Shown here piece by piece: positions 36,732-58,465 of a stretch of 64,000 nucleotides of DNA. Location of the stretch: assembly GCF_000310145.2 (NCBI RefSeq), contig NZ_AMXA01000017.1, positions 1 through 64,000 of the forward strand, read 5' to 3'. This DNA is from Thauera sp. 28. GTDB taxonomy: Bacteria; Pseudomonadota; Gammaproteobacteria; Burkholderiales; Rhodocyclaceae. How positions within the stretch are numbered: position 1 is the first letter of the stretch; each line of letters begins with the position of its first letter. The translations under genes were made by a program, and so were the position numbers. The notes beneath the pieces are model-generated. The model worked only from the letters and a program-made list of their open reading frames with translations, did no database searches and was not told the DNA's origin.

Positions 36732-37063
36732 GGCCGCTGCCACGCCTCATGCCGGCGCCGACGCCCAGGTTAGGGGGGGCCACCTTCGTGCAGGGCTTCG
36801 TTGCAGGGGCCTGCGTATCGGCTTTCCAGGATCAGGCCTCGCCCCTTTCCAGAACCGAACTCAAGCGCGTGCTCCGCCATGGGCTGCAGGGCGGTACGGC
36901 GCTGACCGCCGGCAGCGCCGCCGCGCACGCCGTACGCCGGCAGGACTACGCGGCGGCGCTGCTCGCCGCGGCTGCGGGTGCTGCCGGCGTACTGATCATC
37001 GAACGAATGCTGCGCGAACGGGTGCAGACCGAACAGGAGAAGAAGGATGTCCAAGAAGCATAA
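36728..37063 (+). CDS. Small hydrophobic protein of the ferrosome-like cluster
   Basis: 111 aa. Two Gly/Ala-rich hydrophobic helices (about 20-35 and 68-90, the second AAALLAAAAGAAGVLIIERM) and a charged C-terminus. The start overlaps the previous stop (ATGA). The small-residue packing resembles glycine-zipper membrane proteins. Family not recognised. Confidence 0.5.
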   Translation: MRPLPRLMPAPTPRLGGATFVQGFVAGACVSAFQDQASPLSRTELKRVLRHGLQGGTALTAGSAAAHAVRRQDYAAALLAAAAGAAGVLIIERMLRERVQTEQEKKDVQEA

Positions 37064-37544
37064 GAAGGCCCACCGCCGCGCCTATGGCGAGATGGCGGGC
37101 GGCCACCCGGGGGCTGCCGGCCCGATGTACCAGGGGCATTACGGCCAATACCCGCAGTACGGCCACAACGGCATGGCGGCTGATCCGGCGATGACGGGCA
37201 TGTACGGAGCGAGTGGCGGGTTTGGGCAGGGCGTGGGCGATGGCCAGGGCGGCCAGGGCCTGTATGACGGTCTGCAGGCGGGCCTGCACGCGGCTGGCCT
37301 GGACAAGGGCCTGCTGCAGGGCATGCCGGCCTTCCTGCGCACGCGCAACACCGAGCAGTTCCTGCTCGGGGCGCTCATCGGCGCGGCCGCGGCCTGGGTG
37401 CTGAGCGACGAGGAACTGCGCGGCAAGATCGTGAAGTCGGCAATCAAGCTCTACGCCGGTGTCGCCGGCGGCTTCGAGGAGATGAAGGAGCAGATGTCCG
37501 ACATCCGCGCCGAGGTCGAGGCGGAGCGCCACGGGGACGCATGA
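37047..37544 (+). CDS. Gly/Tyr/Met-rich protein with YtxH-like membrane segment
   Basis: 165 aa. A basic start (KKHKKAHRRAYGEM) and a Gly/Tyr/Met-rich region (15-85, YQGHYGQYPQYGHNG) precede a hydrophobic segment (FLLGALIGAAAAWVLSDEEL, near 108-127) and an amphipathic helix with VAGGFEEMKEQMSDIRAEVE. The C-terminal half resembles YtxH-like proteins. The His/Tyr/Met richness could suit metal or membrane contact. It overlaps both neighbours. Confidence 0.5.
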   Translation: MSKKHKKAHRRAYGEMAGGHPGAAGPMYQGHYGQYPQYGHNGMAADPAMTGMYGASGGFGQGVGDGQGGQGLYDGLQAGLHAAGLDKGLLQGMPAFLRTRNTEQFLLGALIGAAAAWVLSDEELRGKIVKSAIKLYAGVAGGFEEMKEQMSDIRAEVEAERHGDA

Positions 37545-39679
37545 TGGCCAGTGCCTGGGTGTCTGCGCTCGAGCCCGTGCATGCGACCCGGGGGCGGGTG
37601 CGCTGGCGCTATGCCTTGCGCCCGGGTGCATCGGCCGACGTGCAGGCCCTTGAGCGCGCGGTCCTGGTCGTCGACGGGGTGCGCAAGGTGCGCGTCAATG
37701 CCGCTGCGCGCGCACTGGTCGTGGAGTACGACCACAGGACCACTACGGCCGAACGCGTCGCGATCGAGATCCTGCGCATGGATGCCGTCCGTGCGCGCAG
37801 GGCGGGCGCCGCCAATGGCGAGCCGAGCGCGGCACCGCTGGCGCTGAGCGCGGCGACCTTGCTTGCGACGCGCTCGCTGCAGCCCGGGCTGCAGGCTCCG
37901 GTGGCCCTCGGCACAGCGATCCCGCTGCTGGGCGAGGCGATGGACGATTTCCTCGAAAAGGGGGTGACGTCGCACGTGCTCGAGGCGATGGCGGTGGCGA
38001 TCTCCATTGGCCGGCGCGATTTCCTCGCCGCGAACACCACGTCCTTCCTGCTCGCGCTCGGCGAGTACCTCGAGGCCTCGATCGAGCGCCGCTCGGACGA
38101 ACTGCTCAAGCACCTGCTCAAGCCCGCGGTCGACGAGGTTTGGGTGGAGCGCAACGGAGAGGAAGTCCAGGTCGACGCGGACGAGGTGCGCGTCGGCGAT
38201 ACCGTGATCGTCGCGACCGGCGCCGTGATTCCGGTCGATGGCACGGTGCTCGGCGGCGAGGCCTTGGTCAACGAGGCCACGATGACCGGCGAGAGCGTGC
38301 CGGTGGCGCGTCGCCGTGGCGATGCGGTGCTGTCGGGCACGCTGGTCGAGGAAGGGCGCTTGCGCATCTATGCCGAGAAGGTTGGCGCCCAGGCTGCCGT
38401 CGCGCGCATCGCCGACTTCGTCGAGCAGTCGCTCGCGGTCAAGAGCAAGACCCAGCTCGAGGCCGCGCGCATGGCCGACCGCCTGGTGCCCATGGTGCTG
38501 GGGCTGGCGGGTGCCACCTGGCTGGTGTCGCGTGACTGGCAGCGTGTGGCGGCCGTGCTGCAGGCTGACTATTCCTGCGCGCTCAAGCTGTCCACACCGG
38601 TGGCCTTCAAGGCGGCGATGTATGCCGCCGGCAAGTCTGGGATGCTGGTCAAGGGCGCCAAGGCGCTCGAGCGACTGGCCGAGGCCGACACCTTCGTGTT
38701 CGACAAGACCGGCACCCTGAGCACCGGCAGGCTCGAGGTGACCGACTCGGTGGCCTTCAAGCCCGGCTATTCGCCCGAGGACCTGATCAACCTGGCCGCG
38801 TCGGTCGAGGAGCACTATTTCCACCCGCTCGCGCTGGCGGTGGTCGAGGCCTCGCGGCGGCTGGAGAAGCCACGCCACTTCGACCACAAGGAAGTCGAGT
38901 TCATCGTTGCCCACGGGGTGGCCAGCGTCATTGACGGACGGCGCATCGTGGTCGGCTCGCGCCACTTCGTCGAGGACGACGAGGGCATTCCGGTCGCGGC
39001 CCACCGCGAGGTCATCGACCGTCTCCACGTCGAAGGCAAGACCCTGCTCTACATCGGCTTCGGCGGCGAACTGCTCGGCGTGATTGCACTGCGTGACGGC
39101 CTGCGCAGCAACAGCGCGGCAACCATCCGCCGCTTGCGTCGGCTTGGCGTCAGGCGTGTGCTGATGCTCACCGGCGATCACCCCGAACGCGCACGTGCAA
39201 TGGCGGAAGCACTCGGCCTGGACGCGTTCCATGCCGGGCTGATGCCACAGGACAAGGCCAGCATCCTGCAGGCGCTGGCGGCCGATGGTGCGCGCATCGC
39301 CTTCGTTGGCGATGGCGTCAACGATGCGCCGGCACTCAGCGGTGCGCACGTCGGCATCTCTATGCACAACGGCGCCGATGTGGCGCGGCTGGCGTCGGAC
39401 GTGGCGCTGCTCGAGGACGACATCGCCCGTGTGGCGGATGCCCGTGCGCTCGCGCTGGCGACGCGGCGCCTCATCGACAGCAACTTCAAGCTCACGGTTG
39501 GCCTCAACACCACGATCCTGTCGGCGGCTGCGTTCGGCTGGCTGACGCCGGTGGCCGCTTCGGCCCTGCACAACGGCACGACGATCGCCATCCTGCTGCG
39601 TGCGCTCGCTGGCGCCGGCCTGCCGCGCGGACCGAGCGTACGGAACGAAAGCGCCGCACAAGGGGGCGTAGCCGCATGA
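37541..39679 (+). CDS. P1B-type ATPase, ferrosome FezB-like
   Basis: 712 aa. An HMA_2-like N-terminus (HATRGRVRWRYALR) is followed by membrane helices, the actuator motif TGES near 247, an unusual transport motif SCALKLSTP near 345 where most P1B pumps have CPC, the phosphorylation motif DKTGT near 387, HP in HYFHPLAL and GDGVND near 590. All catalytic residues are intact. The Ser-Cys-Ala-x-Lys motif and the small-protein neighbours match what I recall for P1B-6 ATPases (FezB), which load iron into ferrosomes. The next genes are feoAAB. Alternative: a CtpC-like Mn/Fe exporter. Confidence 0.7.
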   Translation: MMASAWVSALEPVHATRGRVRWRYALRPGASADVQALERAVLVVDGVRKVRVNAAARALVVEYDHRTTTAERVAIEILRMDAVRARRAGAANGEPSAAPLALSAATLLATRSLQPGLQAPVALGTAIPLLGEAMDDFLEKGVTSHVLEAMAVAISIGRRDFLAANTTSFLLALGEYLEASIERRSDELLKHLLKPAVDEVWVERNGEEVQVDADEVRVGDTVIVATGAVIPVDGTVLGGEALVNEATMTGESVPVARRRGDAVLSGTLVEEGRLRIYAEKVGAQAAVARIADFVEQSLAVKSKTQLEAARMADRLVPMVLGLAGATWLVSRDWQRVAAVLQADYSCALKLSTPVAFKAAMYAAGKSGMLVKGAKALERLAEADTFVFDKTGTLSTGRLEVTDSVAFKPGYSPEDLINLAASVEEHYFHPLALAVVEASRRLEKPRHFDHKEVEFIVAHGVASVIDGRRIVVGSRHFVEDDEGIPVAAHREVIDRLHVEGKTLLYIGFGGELLGVIALRDGLRSNSAATIRRLRRLGVRRVLMLTGDHPERARAMAEALGLDAFHAGLMPQDKASILQALAADGARIAFVGDGVNDAPALSGAHVGISMHNGADVARLASDVALLEDDIARVADARALALATRRLIDSNFKLTVGLNTTILSAAAFGWLTPVAASALHNGTTIAILLRALAGAGLPRGPSVRNESAAQGGVAA

Positions 39680-39927
39680 GCCACCCAGACCGTTCCAGTG
39701 CCTTCCCCCTGGCGATGGCAGCCGAGGGTGAGGCCGTTTGCGTGGTTGCCATCCTGGGCGGTTCGGCCATGGCCTTGCGCGTGGCCGAGATCGGCCTGAA
39801 TGTCGGCAGTGAGCTCGTCGTCCGCCAGCGCCAGGGGGGTGGCCTGGTGGTGGGGCGCGGCGAGACGCGCTTTGCCCTGGGCGCCGGCATGGCCCACAAG
39901 ATCCTGGTGGCGCGTGCCGGAGCCTGA
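39676..39927 (+). CDS. FeoA-like SH3-fold protein
   Basis: 83 aa FeoA fold: RVAEIGLNVGSELVVRQRQG and a final strand with FALGAGMAHKILV. The start overlaps the ATPase stop (ATGA, 39676-39679), which ties the Feo genes to the ferrosome-like cluster. It is more divergent than the second FeoA. Confidence 0.75.
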   Translation: MSHPDRSSAFPLAMAAEGEAVCVVAILGGSAMALRVAEIGLNVGSELVVRQRQGGGLVVGRGETRFALGAGMAHKILVARAGA

Positions 39928-39993
39928 GCCGCGCGTCCCTTCACATGCTGCGGGTGCGTGCTGCACGCGCGGTCAACAGCTGGAGTCGTTGTG

Positions 39994-40221
39994 ATGATGC
40001 TGAAGCAACTCGAGGTCGGAGACCGCGCAAAGGTCAGTGGTTTTGCCGAGGCGGGCGGGGCCTATCGCCGCAAACTGTTGTCGATGGGGCTCACGCCTGG
40101 GGCCGAGTTGCAGGTCGTACGCGTCGCTCCCATGGGCGACCCGGTCGAGATCCGCGTGCGCGGCTTCGCGCTCACGCTGCGCAAGGGCGAGGCCGACGCC
40201 CTGACAGTCGAGAAACTCTGA
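39994..40221 (+). CDS. feoA: Ferrous iron transport protein A
   Basis: 75 aa from ATG 39994, with GGAG 8 bp upstream. KLLSMGLTPGAELQVVRVAP and VEIRVRGFALTLRKGEADAL are classic FeoA. It binds FeoB and modulates Fe(II) uptake. It lies 13 bp before feoB. Confidence 0.85.
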   Translation: MMLKQLEVGDRAKVSGFAEAGGAYRRKLLSMGLTPGAELQVVRVAPMGDPVEIRVRGFALTLRKGEADALTVEKL

Positions 40222-40234
40222 TTCAGGTGCTGCA

Positions 40235-42562
40235 ATGAACCACGAACACACCATTGCCCTTGTAGGCAATCCCAACTGCGGCAAGACGACCCTGTTCAAC
40301 GCCCTTACCGGCTCGCGCCAGCGTGTCGGCAACTGGCCCGGCGTCACTGTCGAGAAGAAGTGCGGCGAGTACCGGCATGATGGGCGGCACTTCGAAGTCG
40401 TGGATCTTCCCGGAACCTATTCGCTCGACGTGGTCGATCGCGAGGTGTCGCTCGATGAGAGCGTGGCGCGCGACTTCGTCCATGGCAACGAGGCCGGGCT
40501 GGTCGTCAATATCGTCGATGCCGCGAACCTCGAGCGCAACCTCTACCTGACGAGCCAGCTCGTCGAGATGCGCGTGCCCCTGCTGGTCGTGCTCAACATG
40601 GTGGACGTGGCCGAAGCCAAGGGCCTGCGCATCGATGCCGATGAGCTGTCGCGTCGGCTCGGTTGCCCGGTGATCCCGGTGGTGGCCTCCGAAGGCCGCG
40701 GCGTGGATGCGCTGAAGTCAGCGATCCGCAGCGCTGTCCAGGTGCGCCAGCCGGCGAGCGCCACGGTTGATTATCAGCCGGCGCTGGAGCGCGCGATCGA
40801 GACGCTCGTTCCCTTGCTCGGCGAGCCGGCCCGGGCTGCCGGAACGTCTGCGCGCTGGCTTGCGGTCCGCGTGCTCGAGGGCGACGACCTGGCACGCCGC
40901 GCAGCGGGGCCGGCGGTCGCTGCCGAAGCGGAGCGGCTGGGGGCTGGGCTTGACGACGATCTCGACATCATGGTGGCCGATGCGCGCTATGGGCTCGCCA
41001 ACCGCATCGCCGCGGCGGCGGTCACCGTCAGCGGCCGTGTTGGGCGCGATCTCACCGACCGCATCGACCGCGTGGTGCTCAACCGCGTCCTCGGGGTGCC
41101 GATCTTCCTGCTGATGATGTACCTGATGTTCCTCTTCACCATCAGCATCGGCGGCGCCTTCATCGACTTCTTCGACCAGTTTACCGGTGCCTTGCTGGTC
41201 GATGGCTTTGCCGAACTGCTGTCCGGCCTCGGTTCGCCCGAGTGGCTCACCGTCCTGCTCGCGCAGGGCATCGGTGGTGGCATTCAGGTGGTCGCCACCT
41301 TCATCCCGATCATCGGCTTCCTGTTCCTGTTCCTGTCGGTGCTCGAGGACTCGGGCTACATGGCGCGCGCAGCCTTCGTGATGGACCGCTTCATGCGTTG
41401 GGTGGGGCTGCCCGGCAAGTCCTTCGTGCCGCTCATCGTCGGCTTTGGCTGCAACGTGCCGGCGATCATGGCCACGCGTACGCTCGAGCACCGCCGCGAC
41501 CGCCTGATGACGATTGCCATGGCGCCCTTCATGTCCTGCGGCGCGCGTCTGCCGGTGTATGTGCTGTTCGCGGCCGCCTTCTTTCCGAGCGGCGCACAGA
41601 ACGTGGTGTTCGGGCTCTACCTGATCGGCATCGCAGTGGCGGTGCTGACCGGGCTGGTGTTGCGCAACACCCTGCTCAAGGGCGAGCCGACGCCCTTCAT
41701 CATGGAACTGCCGCCCTACCACCTGCCCACCGTGCGCGGCGTGCTGCGCCACGCCTGGGAGCGCCTGATGGCCTTCATCGTGCGCGCCGGCCGGGTGATC
41801 GTGCCGATGGTGCTGGTGCTGAATGTGCTCAACTCGGTTGGCACCGATGGCAGCTACGGCAACGAGGACAGCGATGCCTCCGTGCTTGCCGCGGTGGGGC
41901 GGAGCATCACGCCGGCTTTTGCGCCGATGGGGCTGACCGAGGAGAACTGGCCGGCTGCTGTCGGGATCTTCACTGGCGTACTTGCCAAGGAGGCGGTCGT
42001 CGGCACGCTCGACGCCGCCTACTCCGCGCTCGCCGCCAAGGACGCGGGTGAAGAGGGCAGCGAAGAGACCCCCTTCGACCTCGTCGAAAGCGTCGCCGCC
42101 GCCTTCGCCACCATCCCGGCGAACCTGGCCGATGCGTTTGGCGCCTGGGCCGACCCGATCGGCCTGGACGTTGGCGACCTCAGCGACCAGGCTGCGGTGG
42201 CCGAGGAGCAGGCAGTGTCGACCGGCACCTTCGGCGCGATGGCCGCACGCTTCGACGGCGCGGCGGGGGCCTTCGCCTACCTGTTGTTCATCCTGCTCTA
42301 TGCGCCATGCACGGCTGCGATCGCGGCGATCTATCAGGAGTCGGGTGCGCGCTGGGCGGTGTTCGTCACCGCATGGACGACGGCGATGGGCTACGGCGTG
42401 GCCACGGTGTACTACCAGGCCGCCACCTGGGCGCAGCATCCGGGTGCATCGCTGGCCTGGATCGCCGGTGTTACCGTGTCCATGGGGCTGGTGCTGTGGG
42501 CGCTGCGGCGTCACGGCGCACGCGAGGCAGGCGCCAGCATGCCCCTGCCGCAGCAGGTCTGA
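40235..42562 (+). CDS. feoB: Ferrous iron transporter B
   Basis: 775 aa. An N-terminal G domain with G1 GNPNCGKTT, G3 DLPGTYSLD and G4 NMVD, then the membrane core with paired gate motifs including YMARAAFVMDRFM, GFGCNVPAIMATR and MSCGARLPVYVL. It has a normal FeoB length and carries Fe(II) across the inner membrane, mainly under anoxia. The order feoA-feoA-feoB-feoC is unbroken. Confidence 0.95.
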   Translation: MNHEHTIALVGNPNCGKTTLFNALTGSRQRVGNWPGVTVEKKCGEYRHDGRHFEVVDLPGTYSLDVVDREVSLDESVARDFVHGNEAGLVVNIVDAANLERNLYLTSQLVEMRVPLLVVLNMVDVAEAKGLRIDADELSRRLGCPVIPVVASEGRGVDALKSAIRSAVQVRQPASATVDYQPALERAIETLVPLLGEPARAAGTSARWLAVRVLEGDDLARRAAGPAVAAEAERLGAGLDDDLDIMVADARYGLANRIAAAAVTVSGRVGRDLTDRIDRVVLNRVLGVPIFLLMMYLMFLFTISIGGAFIDFFDQFTGALLVDGFAELLSGLGSPEWLTVLLAQGIGGGIQVVATFIPIIGFLFLFLSVLEDSGYMARAAFVMDRFMRWVGLPGKSFVPLIVGFGCNVPAIMATRTLEHRRDRLMTIAMAPFMSCGARLPVYVLFAAAFFPSGAQNVVFGLYLIGIAVAVLTGLVLRNTLLKGEPTPFIMELPPYHLPTVRGVLRHAWERLMAFIVRAGRVIVPMVLVLNVLNSVGTDGSYGNEDSDASVLAAVGRSITPAFAPMGLTEENWPAAVGIFTGVLAKEAVVGTLDAAYSALAAKDAGEEGSEETPFDLVESVAAAFATIPANLADAFGAWADPIGLDVGDLSDQAAVAEEQAVSTGTFGAMAARFDGAAGAFAYLLFILLYAPCTAAIAAIYQESGARWAVFVTAWTTAMGYGVATVYYQAATWAQHPGASLAWIAGVTVSMGLVLWALRRHGAREAGASMPLPQQV

Positions 42563-43907: not shown

Positions 43908-43960
43908 ACCGATGTGTTCCTGATTGCGGGGCCGGCTTTCATTTCGAGGCAAAGCCGGCG

Positions 43961-43989
43961 TATAATAATTACAAATAGAAATCATTCTT
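43961..43989. promoter_or_regulatory. Two overlapping Fur-box-like 19-mers
   Basis: Positions 43961-43979 and 43971-43989 each match the 19-bp Fur consensus (GATAATGATAATCATTATC) at 11 positions, including ATAAT and AATCATT cores. They lie between the divergent HMA_2 gene and the haem receptor gene and overlap TATAAT (plus) and TGTAAT (minus) -10-like hexamers. Confidence 0.5.
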
Positions 43990-43997
43990 ACTTAGAT

Positions 43998-44011
43998 TTG
44001 ATCTAGCTCAA
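43998..44011. promoter_or_regulatory. FNR-box-like site in the divergent haem/iron region
   Basis: TTGATCTAGCTCAA matches TTGAT-N4-ATCAA at 9 of 10 positions. For the minus-strand gene at 43907 it would sit about 42 bp before a start near 43962, with TGTAAT (43973-43968) as -10, a class II spacing. Its place relative to the plus-strand receptor promoter is less clear. Confidence 0.5.
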
Positions 44012-44138
44012 TTTTGCCCGCTTGTGCTGTGCTTGTCTGCAGCCAAGCGGAGTATTCGGTCCCTTTTTCGCATATCAGCCAGCAACCAACGCCTGTACGG
44101 ATAGGTAGCCAGCCAAATCTTCCTTCCTGGAGAGCTTG

Positions 44139-46085
44139 ATGGTTACCTTCACTGGCGTTCAGTCGACGCTTCGGTCCGCATCGTTTGGCGGTGTGTCACG
44201 GATCATGCTGGCGCTCGCCGTCCTGCCCGCCGCGCAGGCCTGGGCTGGGGCGGCTTCCGATTCGAGGCTCGACGAGGTCTTTGTGACCGCCACTCAGCGC
44301 GAGCAGGCTGTTCGCGACGTGCCCGCAGCGGCAGCGGTGGTCAAGCGCGAAGAAATCGAGGCCGCAGGTGCCGACAATGTGCTTGCGGCCGTGCGTGAGA
44401 CGACGGGAATCGGCCTCGTCGGGCAAAGCGTTGCTGGCCGCAAGACGATGTCCCTGCGCGGCATGGACGGCAAGCACACCCTCTATCTCGTCAATGGCCT
44501 GCGCGTCATCAATACCGACGACTGGGTCGGACATTCCGATTTCCAGTATGACTGGACACCTGTCGACAGCATCGAACGCATCGAGGTTGTGCGAGGGCCG
44601 ATGTCCGTGCTCTATGGCTCGGATGCACTCGGTGGCGTCATCAACACGATTACCCGCCGGCCCGACGCCGAATGGCGTGGCGGCGTTCGCCTCGGCGGGC
44701 GCAGCGTAGCGGGTGGGGGTGATTCGCTCAGCGGCGGTGTTCATTTTTCCGGTGGCCTGACCGACACCTTGCGCATGGCGATCTCGGCCACGCGGCTGCA
44801 GCGCTCGCCGCTCGAGCGCAAGGAAGACCGGCGCACCTCGGAGATCGAGGGTACCGACCTGCAGTCGGGGCATCTGTTGCTGTCCTGGCAGCCGCTGGCC
44901 GCGCACACGTTCGACCTCGAGCACCGCGTCAGCAACGAGGAACGTGAGCGCGACCAAGTCCGCAGCGGCACCTACTACCGCGATACCTACGACATCGATC
45001 GCTCGCAGTCGATCGCGACCTGGCGCGCCGACTGGTCGGGTGTGGAGACCCAGTTGCGCGCCTGGGAGTCCGATTTCTCGGTGTCGAACCGGCGCACCAA
45101 TGGCGTGGCGCCCACCCGCCCGCAGAGCATGGACGACCGTGGTGTGGACGGGCGCGTCGGCTTCGCGCTCGGCAGCATGCAGTACCTGACGGTGGGCTTC
45201 GACACCCGGACCGAGACGATGAAGAACGCCGGCCTCGCCGGTGGCAAGGACGACGCCGATTTTCGCGCGCTGTATATCCAGGATGAGATTGCACTGGCTG
45301 CAGATCTCACGCTTACGCTCGGCTTCCGTCGCGACCGACACTCGATCTTCGGTGCCGAGAGCAGTCCGCGCGCCTACCTTGTCTGGCATGCGACCGATGC
45401 CTGGACGCTGCGAGGCGGCTACGGCGAAGGCTTCCGCGCGCCAACGCTCAAGCAGGCCTCGTCGTCGTACGAGGGTGCCGAAGGGCCGCATACCTTCTAC
45501 GGCAACGGCGACATCCGGCCCGAGACGAGCAAGTCGTGGGAGCTCGGTCTCATGTACGCCAAGGGTGCGATCGATTGGGAGCTCACCGCGTTCCGCAACA
45601 GTGTCACCGATCTCATTACCACGCGCGAGATCCGGCGCGTCGGTCCCCGAGCCTTCTACATCTACGACAACATCAACGATGCCCGCATCCAGGGGGTCGA
45701 GACCGCACTGCGCGTGGATCTTGGCGGCGGTTTCGATGCCCGCCTGAGCGGACAATGGCTCGACACCGAGGACAAGACCTCGGGCAAGCCGCTCAATGCG
45801 CGGCCCGACCACTTGCTCAATGCCCGCCTGGGCTGGAAGCAGGGGCCCTTGAGCGCAGCCCTCCGCCTGGAGCACACCGGCCGTCAGTATGTCACCTCGG
45901 CGGCGCGCAAGGCGCCAGCCTACAACCTGCTGCATCTGCAGGGTGGCTACGCGTTCAACAAGCACCTGCGCGTGACTGCTGGCATCGACAACATCACCAA
46001 TTTCCGCCTGGCCGACAAGTCCAGTTTGTTCAGCTACTCGGAAACCCCGCGCGCGCTGCGCGTCACGCTGCACGGCGCGTTCTGA
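44139..46085 (+). CDS. TonB-dependent haem receptor, HmuR-like
   Basis: 648 aa from ATG 44139, with GGAGAG just upstream; TTG at 44136 is ignored. Signal peptide ends near AQAWAG. The TonB box is EVFVTAT. The plug has SLRGMDGKHTLYLVNGLRV and IEVVRGPMSVLYGSDALGG. In the barrel, GFRAPTLKQ near 430 and GDIRPETS fit the FRAP and NPxL motifs of haem receptors. The barrel ends in Phe. It comes first in a locus with a CobN-like chelatase, ExbB-like and DUF2149 genes, the order of hmuRSTUV. Confidence 0.75.
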   Translation: MVTFTGVQSTLRSASFGGVSRIMLALAVLPAAQAWAGAASDSRLDEVFVTATQREQAVRDVPAAAAVVKREEIEAAGADNVLAAVRETTGIGLVGQSVAGRKTMSLRGMDGKHTLYLVNGLRVINTDDWVGHSDFQYDWTPVDSIERIEVVRGPMSVLYGSDALGGVINTITRRPDAEWRGGVRLGGRSVAGGGDSLSGGVHFSGGLTDTLRMAISATRLQRSPLERKEDRRTSEIEGTDLQSGHLLLSWQPLAAHTFDLEHRVSNEERERDQVRSGTYYRDTYDIDRSQSIATWRADWSGVETQLRAWESDFSVSNRRTNGVAPTRPQSMDDRGVDGRVGFALGSMQYLTVGFDTRTETMKNAGLAGGKDDADFRALYIQDEIALAADLTLTLGFRRDRHSIFGAESSPRAYLVWHATDAWTLRGGYGEGFRAPTLKQASSSYEGAEGPHTFYGNGDIRPETSKSWELGLMYAKGAIDWELTAFRNSVTDLITTREIRRVGPRAFYIYDNINDARIQGVETALRVDLGGGFDARLSGQWLDTEDKTSGKPLNARPDHLLNARLGWKQGPLSAALRLEHTGRQYVTSAARKAPAYNLLHLQGGYAFNKHLRVTAGIDNITNFRLADKSSLFSYSETPRALRVTLHGAF

Positions 46086-46104
46086 TCGCCGCCTGCCCGT
46101 TGTT

Positions 46105-46128
46105 GCGCCCCGCGTTCCTGCGGGGCGC
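46105..46128 (+). terminator. Strong hairpin between receptor and chelatase genes
   Basis: GCGCCCCGC, loop GTTCCT, GCGGGGCGC: a perfect 9-bp stem in the 66-bp gap. No T-run follows, so it may be an attenuator or an RNA-processing or stability element that lets the receptor be made in excess over the chelatase. Confidence 0.5.
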
Positions 46129-46151
46129 TTGTCGAATCCAAGATACCGCCC

Positions 46152-49100
46152 ATGAACAGCTCCACTCCGGTCGAATCCGTCTCGCATGCGCCAGCCCGTG
46201 CACCCTGGCGTCATCTAATCCTCGTCTGTGTGCTGCTCGTGCTTGCCGCCGCGTTGGCGATCGCCCTCCAGCCGCAGCCCCGTGCAGGGCGGGTTGCCGT
46301 GATCAGCAGCGACTTCGTGCTCGGTGGCAAGTTCGTCGCGCTGCACGCCCTGGCCGACACGGCCGGGGTGGATCTTGCCGTGGTCAATATCGACCGTGAC
46401 GCCGCGGATGCGGTCGAGGCGGCCCTGCGCGGCGTGAGGCTGGCCGTGCTGGACGCGCCACGCGAGGAAGACGGCCGACGCATGCGCGAACAGGTCGTGC
46501 CCGTGCTCGATCGCCTCGCTGTGCCCTGGATGCTGTCGTCGGCACGTGGCGTACAGGTGGGCGGCGGGTTGGAGCCTGCGACCGGCGAGGCCTTGTACGC
46601 CTATTACCGCAACGGTAGCCAGCGCAATTTTGCCGGCTTCTTCGCCCATGTCCGCCATCACCTCTTCGGCGAAACCGCCGTCGCGGTGCCGGCCCCGGTG
46701 GTGTTCCCGGACACCGGCATCTACCACCCGGATCACCCTGATCTCGTTGTCGGCGATCTTGCCGCCTACCGCCAGTGGCTGGGCGAAGAGCGCGCTCGGC
46801 GCAGCCCGGCGGTCGGCATCGTCGTCCACCAGGCCTATATCGGCAACATGGGCATGGGGCACATCGACGAGCTGGTGCGCATGCTGGAAGCGCGGGGGGC
46901 GCTGCCGGTGGTGTTCTACCACCCGCTGACGGCGCCGAGCGGCGCGCTCGACATCGTGATGGACGAAGGGCGAGCGGCGGTGGATGTGCTGCTCAACTTC
47001 CAGGTCATGTACCAGGGCAGCCGGCGCGAGGACTACGCCAGGCTGGACGTCCCGGTGCTGCAGGCGATGACCTGGCGCGAGGGCGACGCCGCCCACTGGC
47101 GTGCGAGTGCCGAAGGCGTGCCGGGCGGTGCCGTGCCCTTCCTGCTCGCGATTCCGGAGCAGGCTGGCCTGAGCGACCCGCTGATGGTCGCCGCGATCGA
47201 GGACGAGCGTGCCGTGCTGATCCCCGAGCAGGCGAACGCCCTGGTGGATAAGGCGTACCGCATTGCCCGCCTGCGCGCGAAGGCGAATGCGGACAAGCGT
47301 GTGGCGCTGATGTTCTACAACTACCCGCTCGGCGAGCGTAACCTGTCGGCCTCGTTCCTGAACGTGCCGCGCAGTCTCGCCCGCCTGTCCGAGGCCCTGC
47401 AGGGCGCGGGCTACACCGTGCCGCCCGCCGAGGAGCAAGCGCTCATCGACAGCGCAGCCCGTCTGCTCGCACCTTTCTACCGCGAGGGCAGGCTCGACGC
47501 CCTGCTGGCCGACAATCTCGCGGCGGCCTTGCCCCTTGCCGACTATCTTGCCTGGTTCGATAGCCTGCCTGCGCACGTCCGCGAGCGCATCAACAAGCAC
47601 TGGGGGCCGCCCGAGAACGACCCGATGCTGGTCGGTGCGGGTGACACGCGCAGCTTCGCGATCCCGCGCCTGCAGCTTGGCAACCTGGTGATCATGCCGC
47701 AGCCGCCGCGCGGCCGCATCGACGAGCCGCCCGAGAAGGCGATCTACCACGACACCAAGGTGCCGCTGACCCACTTCTACCTTGCCGCCTACCTCTATGC
47801 GCGCACCGCCTTCGATGCCGACGCGCTGATCCACTTCGGCACCCACGGCAGCCAGGAGTGGACGCCGGGCAAGGAGCGCGGCCTGTCCATCCATGACGAC
47901 CCCTACCTGGTGCTGGGCGACCTGCCGGTGATCTATCCCTACATCGTCGACAACATCGGCGAGGCCACCCAGGCGAAGCGGCGTGGCAGGGCGACGATCA
48001 TCAGCCACCAGACGCCATCGTTCGCACCGGCCGGTCTGCATGCGCAGCTGATGCCGCTGCACGACCTGCTGCACGAGTACGAGCTGCTCGACGTCGGCGC
48101 AGTCAAGGATCGCACCATGGGCGCCATCGTCGATGAGGCGGCACGCCTGACCCTGATCGAGGACATCGGCTGGACGGCCGAGCGCGCACGCGCAGACTTT
48201 CGCCCCTTCGAGCGCGAGCTGCACGACTGGCTGCATACGCTGGCGCAGACCGCCCAGCCGCTCGGCCTGCACACCTTCGGCGAGGCGCCGCGCTTCGAGC
48301 ATCGCGTCGGCACGGTGATGCAGATGCTCGGCGACCGCCTGTACGCGAGCCTCGGCCTGGCCGAGCCGGACGAGCTGTTCGTGGAGGACTACAAGGCGCT
48401 GCCCGAGTCTGCCCCCTACCGCCTGCTCGCCGGCGCGTTCGCGACCGAGCCTGCGGCGGATGAAGACGCGCTGCTGAGCGAGGGGCGCGCCTACTTTGAC
48501 GCACTTGCGGCAGCCGGCGAGCACGCCGGTCTGCTCAAGGCGCTCGACGGCCGCTTCATCGACACCCAGTACGGCGGCGACCCGATCAGGAACCCCGAGA
48601 GCCTGCCCACCGGGCGCAATCTCTACGGCTTCGATCCCTCGCGCATCCCGACCGAGCAGGCCTGGCTCGCCGGCGCTGACGCTTTCGCTCAGCTGCTCGA
48701 AGCGCACCGGGCGGAGCACGGCACGCCGTTGCGCAAGGCGGCGTTCTCGCTTTGGTCGGTCGAGGCGATGCGCCACCTCGGCGTGCTCGAGGCCCAGGTC
48801 TTCCACGCCCTCGGCGTGCGCCCGGTGTGGGACCGCTTCGGCCGCATCAGCGACGTGGAGGTCATCCCGCGCGAGGAACTCGGCCGTGCGCGGGTGGATG
48901 TGGTCGTGTCCGCCACCGGCCTCTATCGCGATCACTTCCCGACCGTCATGACGCTCATCGCGCGTGCGGTCGAGCGCGTGGCGGAGCTCGACGAGCCCGA
49001 CAACGCCGTACGCGCGAACGCGCTGGAGATCGAGCGCTCGCTCATCGAGCAGGGCTTCACCGCCGAGGACGCGCGCCTGCACGCGCTGACGCGCATCTTC

Positions 49101-50177
49101 TCGAGCGAGAGCGGCGCCTACGGCACCGGCCTGGATGACGCTACGCTCGCATCCGACACCTGGGACGACGAGGGCAAGCTTGCCGATCTCTATCTGGAGC
49201 GCATGCAGTACGCCTATGGTCCGGACCCCTCGCGCTGGGGCGAGCGCGTGCGTGCGCCCGGCAATCGGGAGGCGGCTGGCGGCGCGGCAGGCAAGGGCGG
49301 CTTCAACCTCTATGCCGAGCACCTGAGGGGAACCGAGGCGGCCGTGCTCGCGCGCTCGTCCAACCTCTACGGCATGCTCACCACCGACGATCCCTTCCAG
49401 TACCTGGGCGGCATCGGCCTCGCCGTCCGCCGCCTCGACGGGCGCACGCCCGGGCTCTATATCAGCAACCTGCGCGACCAGGGCAAGACCCGGGTCGAAG
49501 GCGCAGGGCGCTTCCTGGCGGCGGAGCTGCGTGCGCGCTACTTCCATCCGCAGTGGGTGGAGGCGATGCAGCAGGAGGGTTATGCCGGCACGCTGGCGGT
49601 CGTCGATACGGTCAACAACTTCTGGGGCTGGACCGCCGTGGCGCCTGAGATCGTCCGCGACGATCAGTGGCAGCAGTTCTTCGAGGTCTATGTCGAGGAC
49701 TCGCTCGAGCTGGGCATGGAAGAGTGGTTCGAGCGCCACAACCCCACCGCCCGTGCCCAGGTCGCAGAGCGCATGCTCGAGGCCGCGCGCAAGGAGTACT
49801 GGAGCACCGACGAGGCCACGCTGAAGCGGCTCGTCGAGATCTATGCCGACGCGGTCGAGCGACTCGACTACCAGCCGGTCAGCAGCAAGGTGGACGCCTA
49901 TGCCCGCTCGCTCGCGGCCGGCTTCGGGCTGGAATCGAGCACGGCACCTGCGCAGGATGCGGCGACGACCCCGACCCCGACCCCGAACGCGGCCGAGGCA
50001 GAGCCGCAGCAAGTGACCGGACAGGTGCTCGAGCAGGTCGCACCTGATGCGGCCGCCGACATGCCGGCGCCCTGGCTGGAGCTTCTGCTTGCGCTGCTCA
50101 CCCTGGGCGCCTTCTTCGCGGGTACGCTGAGCCAGTCGCGCCGGCAGCCGGGTGTCATGCCTGGTACGCGAGCATGA
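46152..50177 (+). CDS. Membrane-anchored CobN/ChlH-like chelatase (HmuS-like)
   Basis: 1341 aa. An N-terminal membrane anchor (about 17-38) precedes a CobN/magnesium-chelatase-H core. The family hallmark runs near 556-600: HFGTHGSQEWTPGKERGLSI, GDLPVIYPYIVDNIGEATQ and AKRRGRATIISHQ. A Pro/Thr/Ala linker and second membrane helix (about 1305-1325) end the protein. Soluble CobN and ChlH insert Co or Mg and need ATPase partners CobST or ChlDI, which are absent here. A two-anchor CobN relative between TonB receptors and ExbB/DUF2149 genes matches HmuS, reported to remove iron from haem in anaerobes. A cobalt- or other tetrapyrrole function cannot be excluded. Confidence 0.75.
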   Translation: MNSSTPVESVSHAPARAPWRHLILVCVLLVLAAALAIALQPQPRAGRVAVISSDFVLGGKFVALHALADTAGVDLAVVNIDRDAADAVEAALRGVRLAVLDAPREEDGRRMREQVVPVLDRLAVPWMLSSARGVQVGGGLEPATGEALYAYYRNGSQRNFAGFFAHVRHHLFGETAVAVPAPVVFPDTGIYHPDHPDLVVGDLAAYRQWLGEERARRSPAVGIVVHQAYIGNMGMGHIDELVRMLEARGALPVVFYHPLTAPSGALDIVMDEGRAAVDVLLNFQVMYQGSRREDYARLDVPVLQAMTWREGDAAHWRASAEGVPGGAVPFLLAIPEQAGLSDPLMVAAIEDERAVLIPEQANALVDKAYRIARLRAKANADKRVALMFYNYPLGERNLSASFLNVPRSLARLSEALQGAGYTVPPAEEQALIDSAARLLAPFYREGRLDALLADNLAAALPLADYLAWFDSLPAHVRERINKHWGPPENDPMLVGAGDTRSFAIPRLQLGNLVIMPQPPRGRIDEPPEKAIYHDTKVPLTHFYLAAYLYARTAFDADALIHFGTHGSQEWTPGKERGLSIHDDPYLVLGDLPVIYPYIVDNIGEATQAKRRGRATIISHQTPSFAPAGLHAQLMPLHDLLHEYELLDVGAVKDRTMGAIVDEAARLTLIEDIGWTAERARADFRPFERELHDWLHTLAQTAQPLGLHTFGEAPRFEHRVGTVMQMLGDRLYASLGLAEPDELFVEDYKALPESAPYRLLAGAFATEPAADEDALLSEGRAYFDALAAAGEHAGLLKALDGRFIDTQYGGDPIRNPESLPTGRNLYGFDPSRIPTEQAWLAGADAFAQLLEAHRAEHGTPLRKAAFSLWSVEAMRHLGVLEAQVFHALGVRPVWDRFGRISDVEVIPREELGRARVDVVVSATGLYRDHFPTVMTLIARAVERVAELDEPDNAVRANALEIERSLIEQGFTAEDARLHALTRIFSSESGAYGTGLDDATLASDTWDDEGKLADLYLERMQYAYGPDPSRWGERVRAPGNREAAGGAAGKGGFNLYAEHLRGTEAAVLARSSNLYGMLTTDDPFQYLGGIGLAVRRLDGRTPGLYISNLRDQGKTRVEGAGRFLAAELRARYFHPQWVEAMQQEGYAGTLAVVDTVNNFWGWTAVAPEIVRDDQWQQFFEVYVEDSLELGMEEWFERHNPTARAQVAERMLEAARKEYWSTDEATLKRLVEIYADAVERLDYQPVSSKVDAYARSLAAGFGLESSTAPAQDAATTPTPTPNAAEAEPQQVTGQVLEQVAPDAAADMPAPWLELLLALLTLGAFFAGTLSQSRRQPGVMPGTRA

Positions 50178-52273
50178 TGCGAGCGCGTGCGCACCTTGGG
50201 TCGCTGCTTGCGGCGCTTGCCGCCGGCTTGCCGGTGGGCGCCCTGGCGGACACCGAGCTGAAGGCGATCGAGGTCGAGGCCGCGCTCGATGCGGTCGCCG
50301 AGCAGCGCTATGCGGCGGGCCAGAAAGTGGTCTTCGACCGCGAGGACATCGCCAGCCTGGGCGGGCTGTCGGTGTCCGAGGTGTTGCGCAAGCTGCCCGG
50401 ACTGGAGCGCGGTGCGGATGGCATGGAAGGCGCCTCGGCCTCGGCGCGCGGGATGGCGCGCGATTCGGTGCTCATCCTCGTCAATGGCGAGCGCCCCACG
50501 GCGAGCGGGCGGCATGCGCTTACCGTGGTCGGCCGGCTGCCTGCTGGCGAACTCGAGCGGGTCGAACTGATGCGCGGCGGCTCGGCCGAGTTCGGCGTCA
50601 CCGCCGAGGTGGTGGTGAACCTTGTCGTGCGTGCGCCGCAGGCCAAGCCGAGCCGCTCGCTGAAGGCCACCGTGGGCCTGCGCGGCGACGAACCCAACCT
50701 GCAGTTGACCGGCAGCGTCGAAGGCGGGGTGGCCGAGCGTGCGTGGACCCTGCCGCTGACGTTCAACCGCCACCGCATGCCGGTCGAGCAGCAGCGCATG
50801 CGCGGCGATCCGGCCGGCGTCGTGGCCGATGAGCGGACGCTGGGCCGCTACCGTGTCGATGAACTGATCCTGTCGCCACGATTGTCCTTGAAGGACGGCG
50901 AACGACGTCTGACTGTGTGGCCAAGCCTCTATCTCAACAACGGCTGGCGGCGCCAGCAGCTCAGCGCCGGCGGCGTCGATACCCGCGTCGACCGCGAGCG
51001 CAGCGACATGCGCATCGCGCGCCTGCGCGCCGACGCCAGCATGCCGCTGGCGTCCGTCGATGGCCGGCTCGGGCTGCGGCTTGCGGTGATGGACGGCGAC
51101 CGTCGGACGGACACCCGTCGCCTGCCTGCCGTGGGCACGGCCGCAGTCGAGGCGCTCGAGCGCAGCGAGCGCGAACTCACCGGGTCGGCCCGGCTCGACA
51201 GGGCAGTGGGGGCCCACCTGCTGACCTGGGCGCTTGAGGGCGCGGTGCTCAGCCGGAAGGATGCACAGGAGGCGGGATCGGATACGGCGTTAGCGCTGCG
51301 CCGTCATGACTTGCGTGAAACAAGCGCGGCGGCCTGGTTCCAGGACGAATGGACCTTCGGCGGCGCCGACGGCGACACTTTTACGCTCACCAGCGGCCTG
51401 CGCGTGGACGGCCTGCGCCAGCGTTCGGGCGGCGGGCAGCGGCATACCGAGGCGGTGTCGCCCTCGCTCGCATTACGTTGGGCGTTCGCGCCGGCCTGGG
51501 TGCTGCGCACCAGCGTCGGAAGTGGCTTGCGCGCGCCCAAGCTGGATGAGCTCAGTCCGGTCGTCACCCGCAGTGCGGGCGTCAATACGCCACTCGAACC
51601 CGACCTGGGCGGGCGGCCGGGCCTGGCTGCGGAGCGCATCCAGCGCTTCGAGATCGGTGTCGAGCGCTATCTCGGCGGCGAGCGCAGCGTGCTTGGGGCC
51701 AACGCCTACTTCCGTCGCACTGCGGACTTCATCGAGCGCACGCTGGCCGACGAGGCTGGACGCTGGGTCGAGCGCCCCGCCAACGTTGGCGATGCGCGCC
51801 ATTGGGGCGTCGAGCTCAGCGTGCGCCTGGACAGCGCCGCCCTCGCTGGCATCTTGCCGGCCGGCGGCAGCCTGCGCGCAACCCTTACCCTGCCGCGGGC
51901 CGAGGTGGACGACGCCCGCCTGGGCGTCCGGCGTATCGCCAGTGACACGCTCCGCCATGTCTCCAGCCTTGGCTATGAACACGCGCCTTCGGGTGCGGCC
52001 CTGCGCTTTGGCGTCCAACTCCGCCACACGGGGCCGGCACGCACGGCGCGGGCCAGCGAACTGCAGGGGACTAACCGCAGTGGCACGCGTATCGACGTCC
52101 ATGTCACCCGGCAGCTCGCTCCTGGGGTTGATCTGCGCCTGGCCGGGGAGAACCTGCTCGGTGCGCGCGATCGCCATGCACGTGTGGCGCGCGATGACGA
52201 CCGTCGCTGGCAGCTGGCCGGCCGTGATGGCGGCGACAGGACCTGGCTGCTGACCCTGGAGGGGAAGTGGTAG
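50174..52273 (+). CDS. Second TonB-dependent receptor of the HmuS-like locus
   Basis: 699 aa, start overlapping the chelatase stop (ATGA). Signal peptide ends near GALA-DT. The plug is slightly unusual: SARGMARDSVLILVNGERPT, VELMRGGSAEFGVTAEVVV. The barrel has LRAPKLDELSP near 455 and ends with LLTLEGKW, a Trp terminal residue instead of Phe. Coupled translation with the chelatase suggests the two act on the same ligand. It differs from the first receptor in nearly all loops, so the ligands or partner haemophores may differ. Confidence 0.75.
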   Translation: MMRARAHLGSLLAALAAGLPVGALADTELKAIEVEAALDAVAEQRYAAGQKVVFDREDIASLGGLSVSEVLRKLPGLERGADGMEGASASARGMARDSVLILVNGERPTASGRHALTVVGRLPAGELERVELMRGGSAEFGVTAEVVVNLVVRAPQAKPSRSLKATVGLRGDEPNLQLTGSVEGGVAERAWTLPLTFNRHRMPVEQQRMRGDPAGVVADERTLGRYRVDELILSPRLSLKDGERRLTVWPSLYLNNGWRRQQLSAGGVDTRVDRERSDMRIARLRADASMPLASVDGRLGLRLAVMDGDRRTDTRRLPAVGTAAVEALERSERELTGSARLDRAVGAHLLTWALEGAVLSRKDAQEAGSDTALALRRHDLRETSAAAWFQDEWTFGGADGDTFTLTSGLRVDGLRQRSGGGQRHTEAVSPSLALRWAFAPAWVLRTSVGSGLRAPKLDELSPVVTRSAGVNTPLEPDLGGRPGLAAERIQRFEIGVERYLGGERSVLGANAYFRRTADFIERTLADEAGRWVERPANVGDARHWGVELSVRLDSAALAGILPAGGSLRATLTLPRAEVDDARLGVRRIASDTLRHVSSLGYEHAPSGAALRFGVQLRHTGPARTARASELQGTNRSGTRIDVHVTRQLAPGVDLRLAGENLLGARDRHARVARDDDRRWQLAGRDGGDRTWLLTLEGKW

Positions 52274-52337
52274 CAGCCACTGCCCCGGCACATTCACGAC
52301 CACTACCACCAACCCATTCATCTTCCAAGGAGGACAC

Positions 52338-52898
52338 ATGTCCCTTTCCCAACTGATCGAAACCGCCATGTACGGACTCAGTCAGCTCTTCATGCTGCCT
52401 GTGCTGCTGCTCGTGACCGTGCTGTTCTTCTACGCCTTCCACGCCCTCGGCCGCTTCCTCATGCAGGCGCGCCAGCGCCGTCGCGGCGACCCGCGTGCGC
52501 AGGAACTCCATGCCGCGCTGCGCCTGGATCCCAGCCTGGGGGTGACCGATCTGGAAGCGATCGCTGTGCACCGGCTCGAGACCCTGCGCATCGCTACCCG
52601 TGTCGGGCCGATGCTCGGCCTGGTCGCAACCATGATCCCCATGGGGCCAGCCTTGATGGCACTCTCCGATGGGCAACTCCAGGAGGTCAGCCGCAACCTG
52701 ATGATCGCCTTCTCAGCGGTGATCCTCGCGCTGATCGCCTCTGCGATTACCTACTGGGTCGTCAGCGTGCGCCGCCGCTGGCTGGCGACCGAGCTGGCCG
52801 ATATCGAGAAGCGAGGCTGCCGCGCTGCTGCGCACGAACAGGGCGGTGCGCCATACGATGATCCGCTCGCCCCGCTGGCCGCGGAGGGTGTGCAATGA
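52338..52898 (+). CDS. ExbB/TolQ/MotA-like proton channel protein (HmuTU-type)
   Basis: 186 aa. AAGGAGG lies 5 bp upstream. Three membrane segments are seen: an N-terminal one (PVLLLVTVLFFYAFHALGR) and two after residue 90 (RVGPMLGLVATMIPMGPAL and ILALIASAITYWVV). The ExbB-type signature between the latter two is kept in form. It sits with a DUF2149 gene rather than exbD, as in hmu loci, so it probably energises the dedicated receptors or the chelatase. Confidence 0.75.
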   Translation: MSLSQLIETAMYGLSQLFMLPVLLLVTVLFFYAFHALGRFLMQARQRRRGDPRAQELHAALRLDPSLGVTDLEAIAVHRLETLRIATRVGPMLGLVATMIPMGPALMALSDGQLQEVSRNLMIAFSAVILALIASAITYWVVSVRRRWLATELADIEKRGCRAAAHEQGGAPYDDPLAPLAAEGVQ

Positions 52899-53206
52899 GC
52901 CTGCGCCTGATGGACGACCTCGAGGCCGACGACCCCATCCTGTCGGTGGTCAATCTGATCGACGTGTTCCTGGTGATCATCGCCGCGCTGCTGCTGGCGA
53001 TCGCAAGCAACCCGATGAACCCTTTCACAACCGATGACGTCACCATCATCAGGAACCCCGGGCAGCCGAACATGGAGATGATCGTCAAGAAGGGCGAGGT
53101 CATCGAGCACTACCAGGCCAGTGGCGAGATCGGCTCGGGAGAGGGCGCCAAGGCTGGGGTCGCCTACCGCATGAAGGATGGCTCCTTCGTCTATGTTCCG
53201 GAGTAG
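52895..53206 (+). CDS. DUF2149 protein (ExbD-like partner)
   Basis: 103 aa, start overlapping the ExbB-like stop (ATGA). DDPILSVVNLIDVFLVIIAA with LLLAIASNP is the DUF2149 mark: an Asp inside a single membrane helix, as in ExbD/TolR. The periplasmic tail is short and strand-rich. It is the likely partner of the ExbB-like channel. Confidence 0.8.
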   Translation: MSLRLMDDLEADDPILSVVNLIDVFLVIIAALLLAIASNPMNPFTTDDVTIIRNPGQPNMEMIVKKGEVIEHYQASGEIGSGEGAKAGVAYRMKDGSFVYVPE

Positions 53207-53227: not shown

Positions 53228-53259
53228 TTGACTTTCTGTGGATAGTAATAATAATGAGA
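53228..53259 (+). promoter_or_regulatory. Promoter with Fur-box-like overlap
   Basis: TTGACT (53228-53233) and AATAAT (53250-53255) are 16 bp apart. GATAGTAATAATAATGAGA at 53241-53259 resembles a Fur 19-mer and covers the -10 box. It would place the following small gene and the S4 paralogue under iron control. Confidence 0.5.
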
Positions 53260-53283
53260 ACTGTTCGCAGAAAGGAGTTCGTC

Positions 53284-53568: not shown

Positions 53569-53610
53569 GGCGTGCTGCACAGACTCACGGAACAACAGAA
53601 GGAGAACGAC

Positions 53611-54222
53611 TTGTCACGTTATACCGGCCCCCGCCTGAAGGTGATGCGCGCACTGGGCTGCGAGCTTCCCGGCCTGTCGCGCAAGCCGCTGGGGGAACGC
53701 AACTACCCGCCAGGCCAGCACGGCCAGCGCCCAAAGCGCAAGTCGGAGTTCGGCTCGCAACTGATCGAGAAGCAGAAGCTGCGTTTCAACTATGGCCTGG
53801 GCGAGCGCCAGATCCAGCGCCTGTTCCGTGAAGCCAAGCGCGACAAGGCGCCCACGGGCGAGAAGCTGCTCGAGCTGCTCGAGCGCCGCCTGGATAATTT
53901 CGTGTTCCGCGCCGGCTTTGCGCCGACCGCCGTCGCCGCTCGGCAGCTGGTGCGGCACAAGCATGTCCTGCTCAATGGCCGGTCGGTGAACATCCCGTCG
54001 ATCCGCATTCGTCCGGGTGACCGCATCACGCTCACCGAGCGTGCACGCAAGATTCCGGTGGTCGTCGAGGCGCTCGCCGAGCCGGCGCTCAGCCGTCCCG
54101 AATGGCTGGCGTTCGACGAGGCCTCGCTGAGCGCGCAGGTCATGCGGACGCCTTCGGCCGACGAGGTGCCGTTCCCGGTCGAGGTGCAGCAAGTCGTCGA
54201 ATACTACGCGGTGCGCCTGTGA
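53611..54222 (+). CDS. Divergent paralogue of ribosomal protein S4
   Basis: 203 aa from TTG 53611, with AAGGAG 6 bp upstream; the frame also opens at 53572. N-terminal SRYTGPRLKVMRALG and PPGQHGQRPKRKSEFGSQL are S4, as are EKQKLRFNYGLGERQ, LLERRLDNFVFRAGFAPT and the S4 RNA-binding domain VLLNGRSVNIPSIRIRPGDR. It has one Cys and so no zinc site. It is not in the alpha operon (no rpsK, rpsM or rpoA nearby), and GELPGL-type features resemble S4 of other phyla more than the usual beta- and gammaproteobacterial S4. It is likely a transferred second copy, perhaps used in low iron. Confidence 0.85.
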   Translation: MSRYTGPRLKVMRALGCELPGLSRKPLGERNYPPGQHGQRPKRKSEFGSQLIEKQKLRFNYGLGERQIQRLFREAKRDKAPTGEKLLELLERRLDNFVFRAGFAPTAVAARQLVRHKHVLLNGRSVNIPSIRIRPGDRITLTERARKIPVVVEALAEPALSRPEWLAFDEASLSAQVMRTPSADEVPFPVEVQQVVEYYAVRL

Positions 54223-58441: not shown

Positions 58442-58465
58442 TTCAGCTCCAGTAGGTTGGGCAGG

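Follow-up and report, generated by a model that had tools for sequence, protein, structure and literature searches.

What would a CobN-like chelatase be doing when its gene lies between two TonB-dependent receptor genes, and is followed downstream by those of an ExbB-like channel protein and a DUF2149 protein? This is the question raised by five genes in positions 1 to 64,000 of contig NZ_AMXA01000017.1 of Thauera sp. 28, a stretch of 64 kb which, taken whole, is called the window here. The answer that we propose, at a probability of roughly 0.6, is that these genes make up a Fur-controlled iron-uptake operon, in which a membrane-anchored chelatase would strip the iron from an imported ligand, with the ExbB-like and DUF2149 proteins as its motor. 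Papers on related systems are cited by their PMC accessions.

A probable five-gene operon

44139..46085, + strand: TonB-dependent receptor A (PF00593, PF07715), CirA-like, with a score under that model's cut-off
46152..50177, + strand: CobN/BtuS-like chelatase of 1341 residues, with PF02514 across residues 149-1223 and NF004644 at 1549.5 bits (cut-off 1248)
50174..52273, + strand: TonB-dependent receptor B (PF00593, PF07715)
52338..52898, + strand: ExbB/TolQ/MotA-like channel protein (PF01618)
52895..53206, + strand: DUF2149 protein (PF09919), proposed ExbD-like partner, with a single transmembrane helix and Asp23

The five frames (44139-53206) are all open and run in the same direction, and a single operon is likely because the gaps between them are of 66, -4, 64 and -4 bases; with the Pfam matches, this bears out the gene set that an initial annotation had read here. 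The same annotation had seen in it the hmu layout of Bacteroidota, which holds for the receptor, chelatase, ExbB-like and DUF2149 genes; however, neither hmuY nor hmuT is found among the five genes, when compared with the hmu operon of Bacteroides finegoldii (locus L008), and receptor B occupies the place of HmuT. Its reading of an HmuS strayed into a betaproteobacterium-like genome has to be abandoned as well: this layout is no rarity among Proteobacteria, at least 578 relatives having come from scanning named genomes. Of these, 80 were kept, and together with loci collected earlier they bring the number of chelatase sequences to 119, of which 99 fall in the clade of the window. Loci with a chelatase reading frame below 950 residues, or with none found, were left out beforehand (L082, L103 and L157 among them); in the last of these, from Nitrosomonas europaea ATCC 25978 (8926-13024), the chelatase gene is split into three reading frames. 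No relative was found in the viral contigs searched.

The chelatase stands apart from CobN

Both ends of the CobN-like protein contain a hydrophobic stretch, with Kyte-Doolittle maxima of 2.97 and 1.84, and on this hydropathy it is predicted to be periplasmic and anchored at each end, as had been suggested at the outset. The contrast with eight CobN and BchH proteins is clear at the C-terminus, where these do not go beyond 1.06, and weaker at the N-terminus, where they reach 1.81. In a tree of 32 rows, the anchored proteins, HmuS included, separate from CobN and BchH with a support of 98 in the Shimodaira-Hasegawa-like approximate likelihood ratio test (SH-aLRT). When the window clade is forced together with CobN, the topology is rejected by the approximately unbiased test (p-AU 0.0154); a grouping with HmuS is neither rejected nor demonstrated (p-AU 0.139), in a tree with one long-branched HmuS only. 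Of the two placements between which the initial annotation had sought a decision, that with CobN falls. An earlier tree of 40 rows had put an anchored group (L073-L076, L090) on the CobN/BchH side, with a support of only 17.

L073, L074, L076 and L090 are anchored chelatases of a group of their own, accompanied by ExbB and DUF2149, and all four have cobO-like and cobB-like genes (labels from our own reading of the sequences) within 7 kb; they may be cobalt chelatases that use the same putative motor. In Runella (L007, 4515-12549), a nickel-hydrogenase (hyp) cluster encloses the genes for ExbB, DUF2149 and chelatase, together with that for a TonB receptor, a possible nickel class of chelatase.

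The window chelatase carries the NCBIfam label CobN (NF004644), and it shares PF02514 and a related HxGxHG motif with CobN and ChlH/BchH; these differ from it in their clade, in lacking the C-terminal hydrophobic end, and in having ATPase partners. A search for the ChlI-type ATPase (PF01078) gave five places in this genome (4.3 Mb in 117 contigs), none of them on the contig of the window, and one that adjoins an ordinary CobN at C10, which is the second PF02514 protein of the genome and groups with CobN in the tree. The initial claim that CobST/ChlDI partners are lacking therefore stands for the ChlI-type ATPase on this contig, the CobS and CobT families not having been searched by name. Rfam gives a single match in the window, a manganese riboswitch (yybP-ykoY, 18128-18317, 69.3 bits), with no riboswitch at the operon and nothing at E<=1 in 43900-44200. 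The protein is predicted from its hydropathy to be exported and anchored, carries PF02514 and lies outside the CobN and ChlH clades, as BtuS-type proteins do; the name BtuS is that used for proteins of Bacteroides and Methanosarcina, among them BtuS1 and BtuS2 of Bacteroides fragilis, and no Fur/Zur split is described in the available sections on these.

Two states of one family

In the PDB, the best match of the window chelatase is HmuS (9D26), from the hmuYRSTUV operon of Bacteroidota, whose receptor, ExbB-like and DUF2149 genes and iron context are shared with the window, as is a PF02514 protein with anchors. The residues stressed for HmuS are Met79, His254, the HFG(T/A)HG motif with the essential His538 and Glu577, and LSLDHxxEFMGG with His1209 and Glu1212 (PMC12583661, PMC13227078). 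The HFGTHG motif is kept, with H565 and E604 in the window in the columns of His538 and Glu577, which are H and E in 99/99 of the clade. In contrast, the MAFFT alignment puts P103 and V285 in the columns of the axial haem ligands Met79 and His254 (with more doubt for Met79, as the head aligns loosely), and D1080/Q1083 in those of His1209/Glu1212, with LTTDDPFQYLGG instead of LSLDHxxEFMGG. Nor is there a methionine-rich insertion, with at most 5 Met per 60 residues, although this feature is perhaps not universal, given that the HmuS of B. finegoldii (1360 residues) has at most 7. Plain HmuS membership is ruled out by these residues, and with it the identification as HmuS from which we started; the window operon differs further in its two receptors, and the chelatase in a conserved His1132, at a position that is Asn in HmuS.

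What takes the place of that identification is membership in a large, widespread but little-studied and mostly proteobacterial family, whose other branch is linked to zinc. Within the clade, the His1209 column (position 1080) holds Asp in 65 sequences, the window included, and His in 34, and these are called here Asp-type and His-type. The Glu1212 column (1083) is Gln in 62/65 of the former and Glu in 34/34 of the latter, and the His254 column, Val in the window, is His in 28/34 of the His-type. Position 1132 is occupied by His in 64/65 Asp-type members and in 5/34 His-type members (27 have Asn and 2 Ser), and outside the clade by His in 1/20 and Asn in 19/20. Five members combine His1080 with His1132 (L098, L117, L123, L125, L145) and look like intermediates, and the sole Asp-type member without His1132, L132, sits inside the His-type clade, of whose 35 tips the His-type members make up 34. 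Outside the window clade, His1080 occurs in HmuS, in one BchH and in L161, where it is paired with Glu1083 and a Zur box is absent.

Fur-like and Zur-like sites

43961..43989, + strand: two overlapping Fur-like sites before receptor A, 17.2 bits with the trained matrix
53241..53268, + strand: second Fur-like site, before a small open reading frame (ORF) and the rpsD paralogue, 16.8 bits, 10/2000 samples as high

For the matrix, 15 sites served as the training set, none of them from the window or its close relative L077. With it, the best place in the window is at 26193 (6/2000 Markov samples as high), the site at 43961 comes second (38/2000), that at 53250 third (10/2000), and 61461 is weaker (93/2000). 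In the two closest relatives, Fur boxes lie upstream of the same receptor and are clearer than the site of the window, at 23.5 bits in L077 and 26.7 bits in L079 (0/2000 samples as high in both); that of L079 was scored separately, as the automated scan had missed it (p 0.08) because a called ORF covers the site. Fur control of the window copy would be in keeping with these relatives. Two genomes of the same genus, G022 and G014, each carry a Fur-boxed copy of the window type (L077, L079) together with a Zur-boxed His-type paralogue (L081, L080). Between position 44070 and 44125, and upstream of receptor A in L077 and L079, there is also a leader, CAGCAA.CAACC...GG.TAGCCAGCCA in outline, which looks conserved by eye and for which no Rfam match was obtained in the window copy.

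The same division is seen over the clade, for which 5/99 members had no upstream DNA. Counting as matches Zur boxes with at most 2 mismatches and a shuffle p of at most 0.02, and Fur boxes with at most 6 mismatches and p of at most 0.03, Zur boxes are found upstream of 18/33 His-type and 3/61 Asp-type loci, and Fur boxes upstream of 21/61 Asp-type and 0/33 His-type loci, counts that are not independent events, since the His-type is one clade, and for which Fisher p-values overstate the case. The neighbouring genes differ as well. COG0523-like genes and L31 paralogues (both labels from our own reading), which are known zinc-response genes, lie near 7/34 and 3/34 of the His-type chelatases, as against 1/65 and 0/65 of the Asp-type; in turn, the haem-binding ChaN (PF04187 for the one tested) is found near 11/65 Asp-type and 0/34 His-type, and a bacterioferritin-like gene near 5 Asp-type and no His-type chelatases.

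The zinc-linked branch has a counterpart in PA1921-PA1925 of Pseudomonas aeruginosa, which is Zur-regulated (PMC4542158, PMC8531726, PMC11761036) and in which, as in the window, receptor, CobN-like and ExbD-like genes belong to one operon; this is induced by lack of metal, with zinc and Zur instead of the iron and Fur that we propose here. Judging by Stutzerimonas and other Zur-boxed relatives, PA1923 would be of the His-type. The window chelatase does not belong with it, having D1080/Q1083 instead of His1080/Glu1083, and zinc is likewise rejected for the window operon, which has no Zur box, the best upstream match having 4/11 mismatches. In the open-licence literature searched, neither a Fur/Zur split nor a motor built on DUF2149 came to light.

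The receptors

In receptor A, the loop that follows FRAP contains a His (GPHTF), placed between FRAP and an NPxL-like motif. Such a His binds haem in the haem receptors that are known. GPH[TS]F is present in 11/27 aligned Asp-type receptors and in 0/27 of the His-type, and orthologues of receptor A adjoin the chelatase, while other Asp-type loci carry quite different receptors. Receptor B has six orthologues (L003, L093, L100, L120, L135 and L156; 41-47%), and because each of them directly follows the chelatase, the two-receptor layout is common to seven loci.

A possible motor

The ExbB-like protein has G94, L95 and T98 invariant in 89/89 sequences, and the DUF2149 protein, with its one transmembrane helix, keeps Asp23 in 75/76. 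By hhalign, DUF2149 aligns with ExbD over this helix, with Asp23 onto the ExbD Asp (E 1.9e-4, probability 47.6%). Pfam ExbD does not match the window protein, in which PF09919 alone is found; in a profile search against the PDB, TolR appeared at E 0.93, which was not counted as evidence, and the highest-ranking entry (E 1e-5) seems to be a designed protein. Over 398 genomes from the phylum, DUF2149 occurs at 18 places in 17 genomes, with a chelatase within 2.8 kb in 18/18 and within 620 bases in 16/18.

Among the 75 clade loci with more than 4 kb on both sides (for 24/99, a flank was too short), ExbB is present in 74, DUF2149 in 73, and a same-strand receptor within 6 kb in 63; L072 is scored as a DUF2149 miss, though its DUF2149 overlaps the called chelatase frame. 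The 12 loci with ExbB, DUF2149 and chelatase but no such receptor comprise 8 with a divergent receptor directly upstream, L096 with an opposite-strand receptor farther downstream, L071 with a same-strand receptor farther off, and L006 and L112, with no receptor among the neighbours listed. DUF2149 is also present, as far as gene presence goes, in the control genome of Methanosarcina acetivorans, an archaeon without an outer membrane. In the genome of the window, there are three ordinary ExbD genes elsewhere, so that DUF2149 is not its only ExbD-like protein. Since ExbB and DUF2149 are near-constant companions of the chelatase and the receptor less so, and given the archaeal DUF2149 and the ordinary ExbD genes, it is plausible that ExbB-DUF2149 acts as a proton-driven motor of the chelatase, in place of the ATP-driven CobST; such a motor is new with respect to the literature searched.

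The surroundings of the operon

37047..39679, + strand: ferrosome-like genes, a P1B-type ATPase (TIGR01525) and its small partner
39676..42562, + strand: FeoA-like protein together with FeoB, which probably import the product, Fe(II)
53572..54222, + strand: ribosomal protein S4 paralogue (PF00163), the second S4 gene of the genome

FeoB is encoded at 40235-42562 (NF007105/TIGR00437), and the FeoA-like gene at 39676-39927 is named by its position and by a 63% match to the small gene preceding FeoB in L115. The P1B-type ATPase lies at 37541-39679 with an HMA-domain gene as the small partner, a pair that is called ferrosome-like here. Both sets recur with the operon, the ferrosome-like P-ATPase and HMA gene downstream of it in Dechloromonas (L120; 64% and 58%), and FeoAB after it in Rhodoferax (L115), and this recurrence favours Fe(II) as the product; the iron context of the initial annotation is thereby upheld, by these genes as by the Fur-like sites.

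On the 3' side come a small ORF, the S4 paralogue, and then genes for an iron-type receptor and a CysJ-like flavoprotein. The S4 (rpsD) paralogue recurs near Asp-type chelatases, 10/65 of them (in 9 loci), and near 0/34 of the His-type. The run at 55607-61378, with that receptor and flavoprotein, genes that we presume to be PepSY-like or to encode small exported proteins, and the weak Fur-like site at 61461, resembles another iron-uptake set. At 26193-32516, the best Fur-like site of the window is followed by a TonB receptor, a substrate-binding protein, and an ATP-binding cassette (ABC) permease, an ATPase and an NnrS-like gene, these last three read by eye from the sequence; orthologues of that receptor adjoin the chelatase operon in L091 and L126.

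Proposed function and alternatives

The function that we propose would proceed as follows: (i) receptors A and B would admit iron-bearing ligands to the periplasm, whether haem, a different iron porphyrin or a ferric siderophore; (ii) the anchored CobN/BtuS-like protein would remove the iron in a cleft between H565/E604 and, facing them, D1080 and perhaps H1132, thus working as a chelatase in reverse; (iii) the ExbB-like and DUF2149 proteins would form a dedicated proton channel driving it, replacing the ATP-driven CobST/ChlID of its cytoplasmic relatives; (iv) and finally, Fe(II) would enter through FeoAB, to be stored, maybe, in a ferrosome-like compartment. The sequence provides the gene set, the hydrophobic ends, the clade, the residues, the regulator sites in relatives, and the near-constant link between ExbB, DUF2149 and chelatase; Fur control of the window copy, the direction of the reaction, its substrate, the place of H1132 in the cleft, the motor role, and the Feo and storage steps are what we infer. 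Release of iron from an imported ferric compound is likely, with about even odds that this compound is haem. It may tentatively be supposed, beyond this, that the chelatases are a widespread family of metal strippers of the periplasm, split into metal-specific classes and run by the proton gradient through a dedicated ExbB-DUF2149 stator in place of ATP-driven CobST/ChlID, one class Fur/iron with Asp1080-His1132, another Zur/zinc with His1080-Glu1083, and others near nickel and B12 genes, with HmuS as one case.

As to the ligand, the narrower idea that the operon is a true haem de-chelatase operon, the proteobacterial hmu, in which receptor A imports haem to be split into protoporphyrin IX and Fe(II), falls a little short of an even chance. 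HmuS as top PDB match, ChaN near Asp-type members, the His of receptor A and the adjoining Feo argue for it, as does a genome in which neither haem oxygenase nor the HemS family was found; these have to be set against the absence of four HmuS residues, the lack of HmuY and HmuT, and a clade with HmuS that is not rejected (p-AU 0.139) but no more than that, while one fixed ligand is doubtful, as the same chelatase is served elsewhere by other receptor types. This last point, with the CirA-like character of receptor A, would suit iron from a siderophore or other non-haem metallophore, the chelatase fold being then a general periplasmic metal stripper, and so would the zinc-linked sister branch, in which haem would hardly be expected, and the relatives near nickel-hydrogenase and B12-type genes. 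Yet CobN and ChlH act on tetrapyrroles. The same is true of HmuS (PMC12583661), and characterised PF02514 proteins are not known to act on anything else, which speaks against a metallophore, as do the ChaN neighbours, and we would give this second ligand a minor share of the odds. An ordinary cobaltochelatase, serving cobalt or B12, is in our estimation extremely improbable: the NCBIfam name and the relatives among cobO/cobB-like genes would call for it, but it is rejected by the tree, by the riboswitch scan and by the gene context, with an ordinary CobN beside a ChlI-like ATPase at C10 and Fur-type sites in the close relatives, in agreement with the initial annotation.

More weight must be given, though we find it doubtful, to the view that ExbB and DUF2149 power the TonB receptors and that the chelatase needs no motor. 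It agrees with the ExbB family membership, with the divergent receptor found directly upstream in 8 of the 12 loci, and with the assignment of HmuU and HmuV to powering the receptor in a figure legend of PMC12583661; for HmuV, PMC13227078 states that no homology is known. It accords less well with the 12/75 loci themselves, among them L006 and L112 with no receptor in the listed neighbourhood, with the archaeal DUF2149, and with the three ordinary ExbD genes.

The printed HmuUV assignment is one of several points that tell against the Fur-controlled, motor-driven operon as we propose it. The likeness of DUF2149 to ExbD is limited to the transmembrane helix, the AlphaFold model of DUF2149 is weak (predicted template modelling score, pTM, 0.28), and around the BtuS genes of Methanosarcina barkeri the full operon is lacking (PMC10846266). 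With the plain Fur consensus, the window promoter has 8 mismatches (p 0.36, not significant), the signal passing with the trained matrix only; 40/61 Asp-type loci have no Fur-like box, 3/61 have a Zur-like one, and the His-type side of the contrast is a single clade. No ChaN gene adjoins the window operon, the one in the genome being at C11. Finally, a btuS1 btuS2 double mutant of B. fragilis, despite its poor growth with haem as iron source, went on producing protoporphyrin IX, at about twice the amount (PMC6460266), which argues against that homologue being simply a de-chelatase; in later work, de-chelation has been shown for HmuS of Bacteroides thetaiotaomicron (PMC12583661).

Implications

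How Gram-negative bacteria remove the metal from an imported chelate, without oxygen and without taking the chelate into the cytoplasm, is poorly known, and one chelatase fold with a proton-channel pair, placed in separate iron and zinc regulons, would, if true, offer a general answer. It would also recast the Zur-regulated PA1922-1925 of Pseudomonas aeruginosa, whose exact role is called undetermined in PMC4542158, and DUF2149 would gain a function. The exchange of residues at 1080, 1083 and 1132 between the two states makes the choice of metal in this family open to a mutational test.

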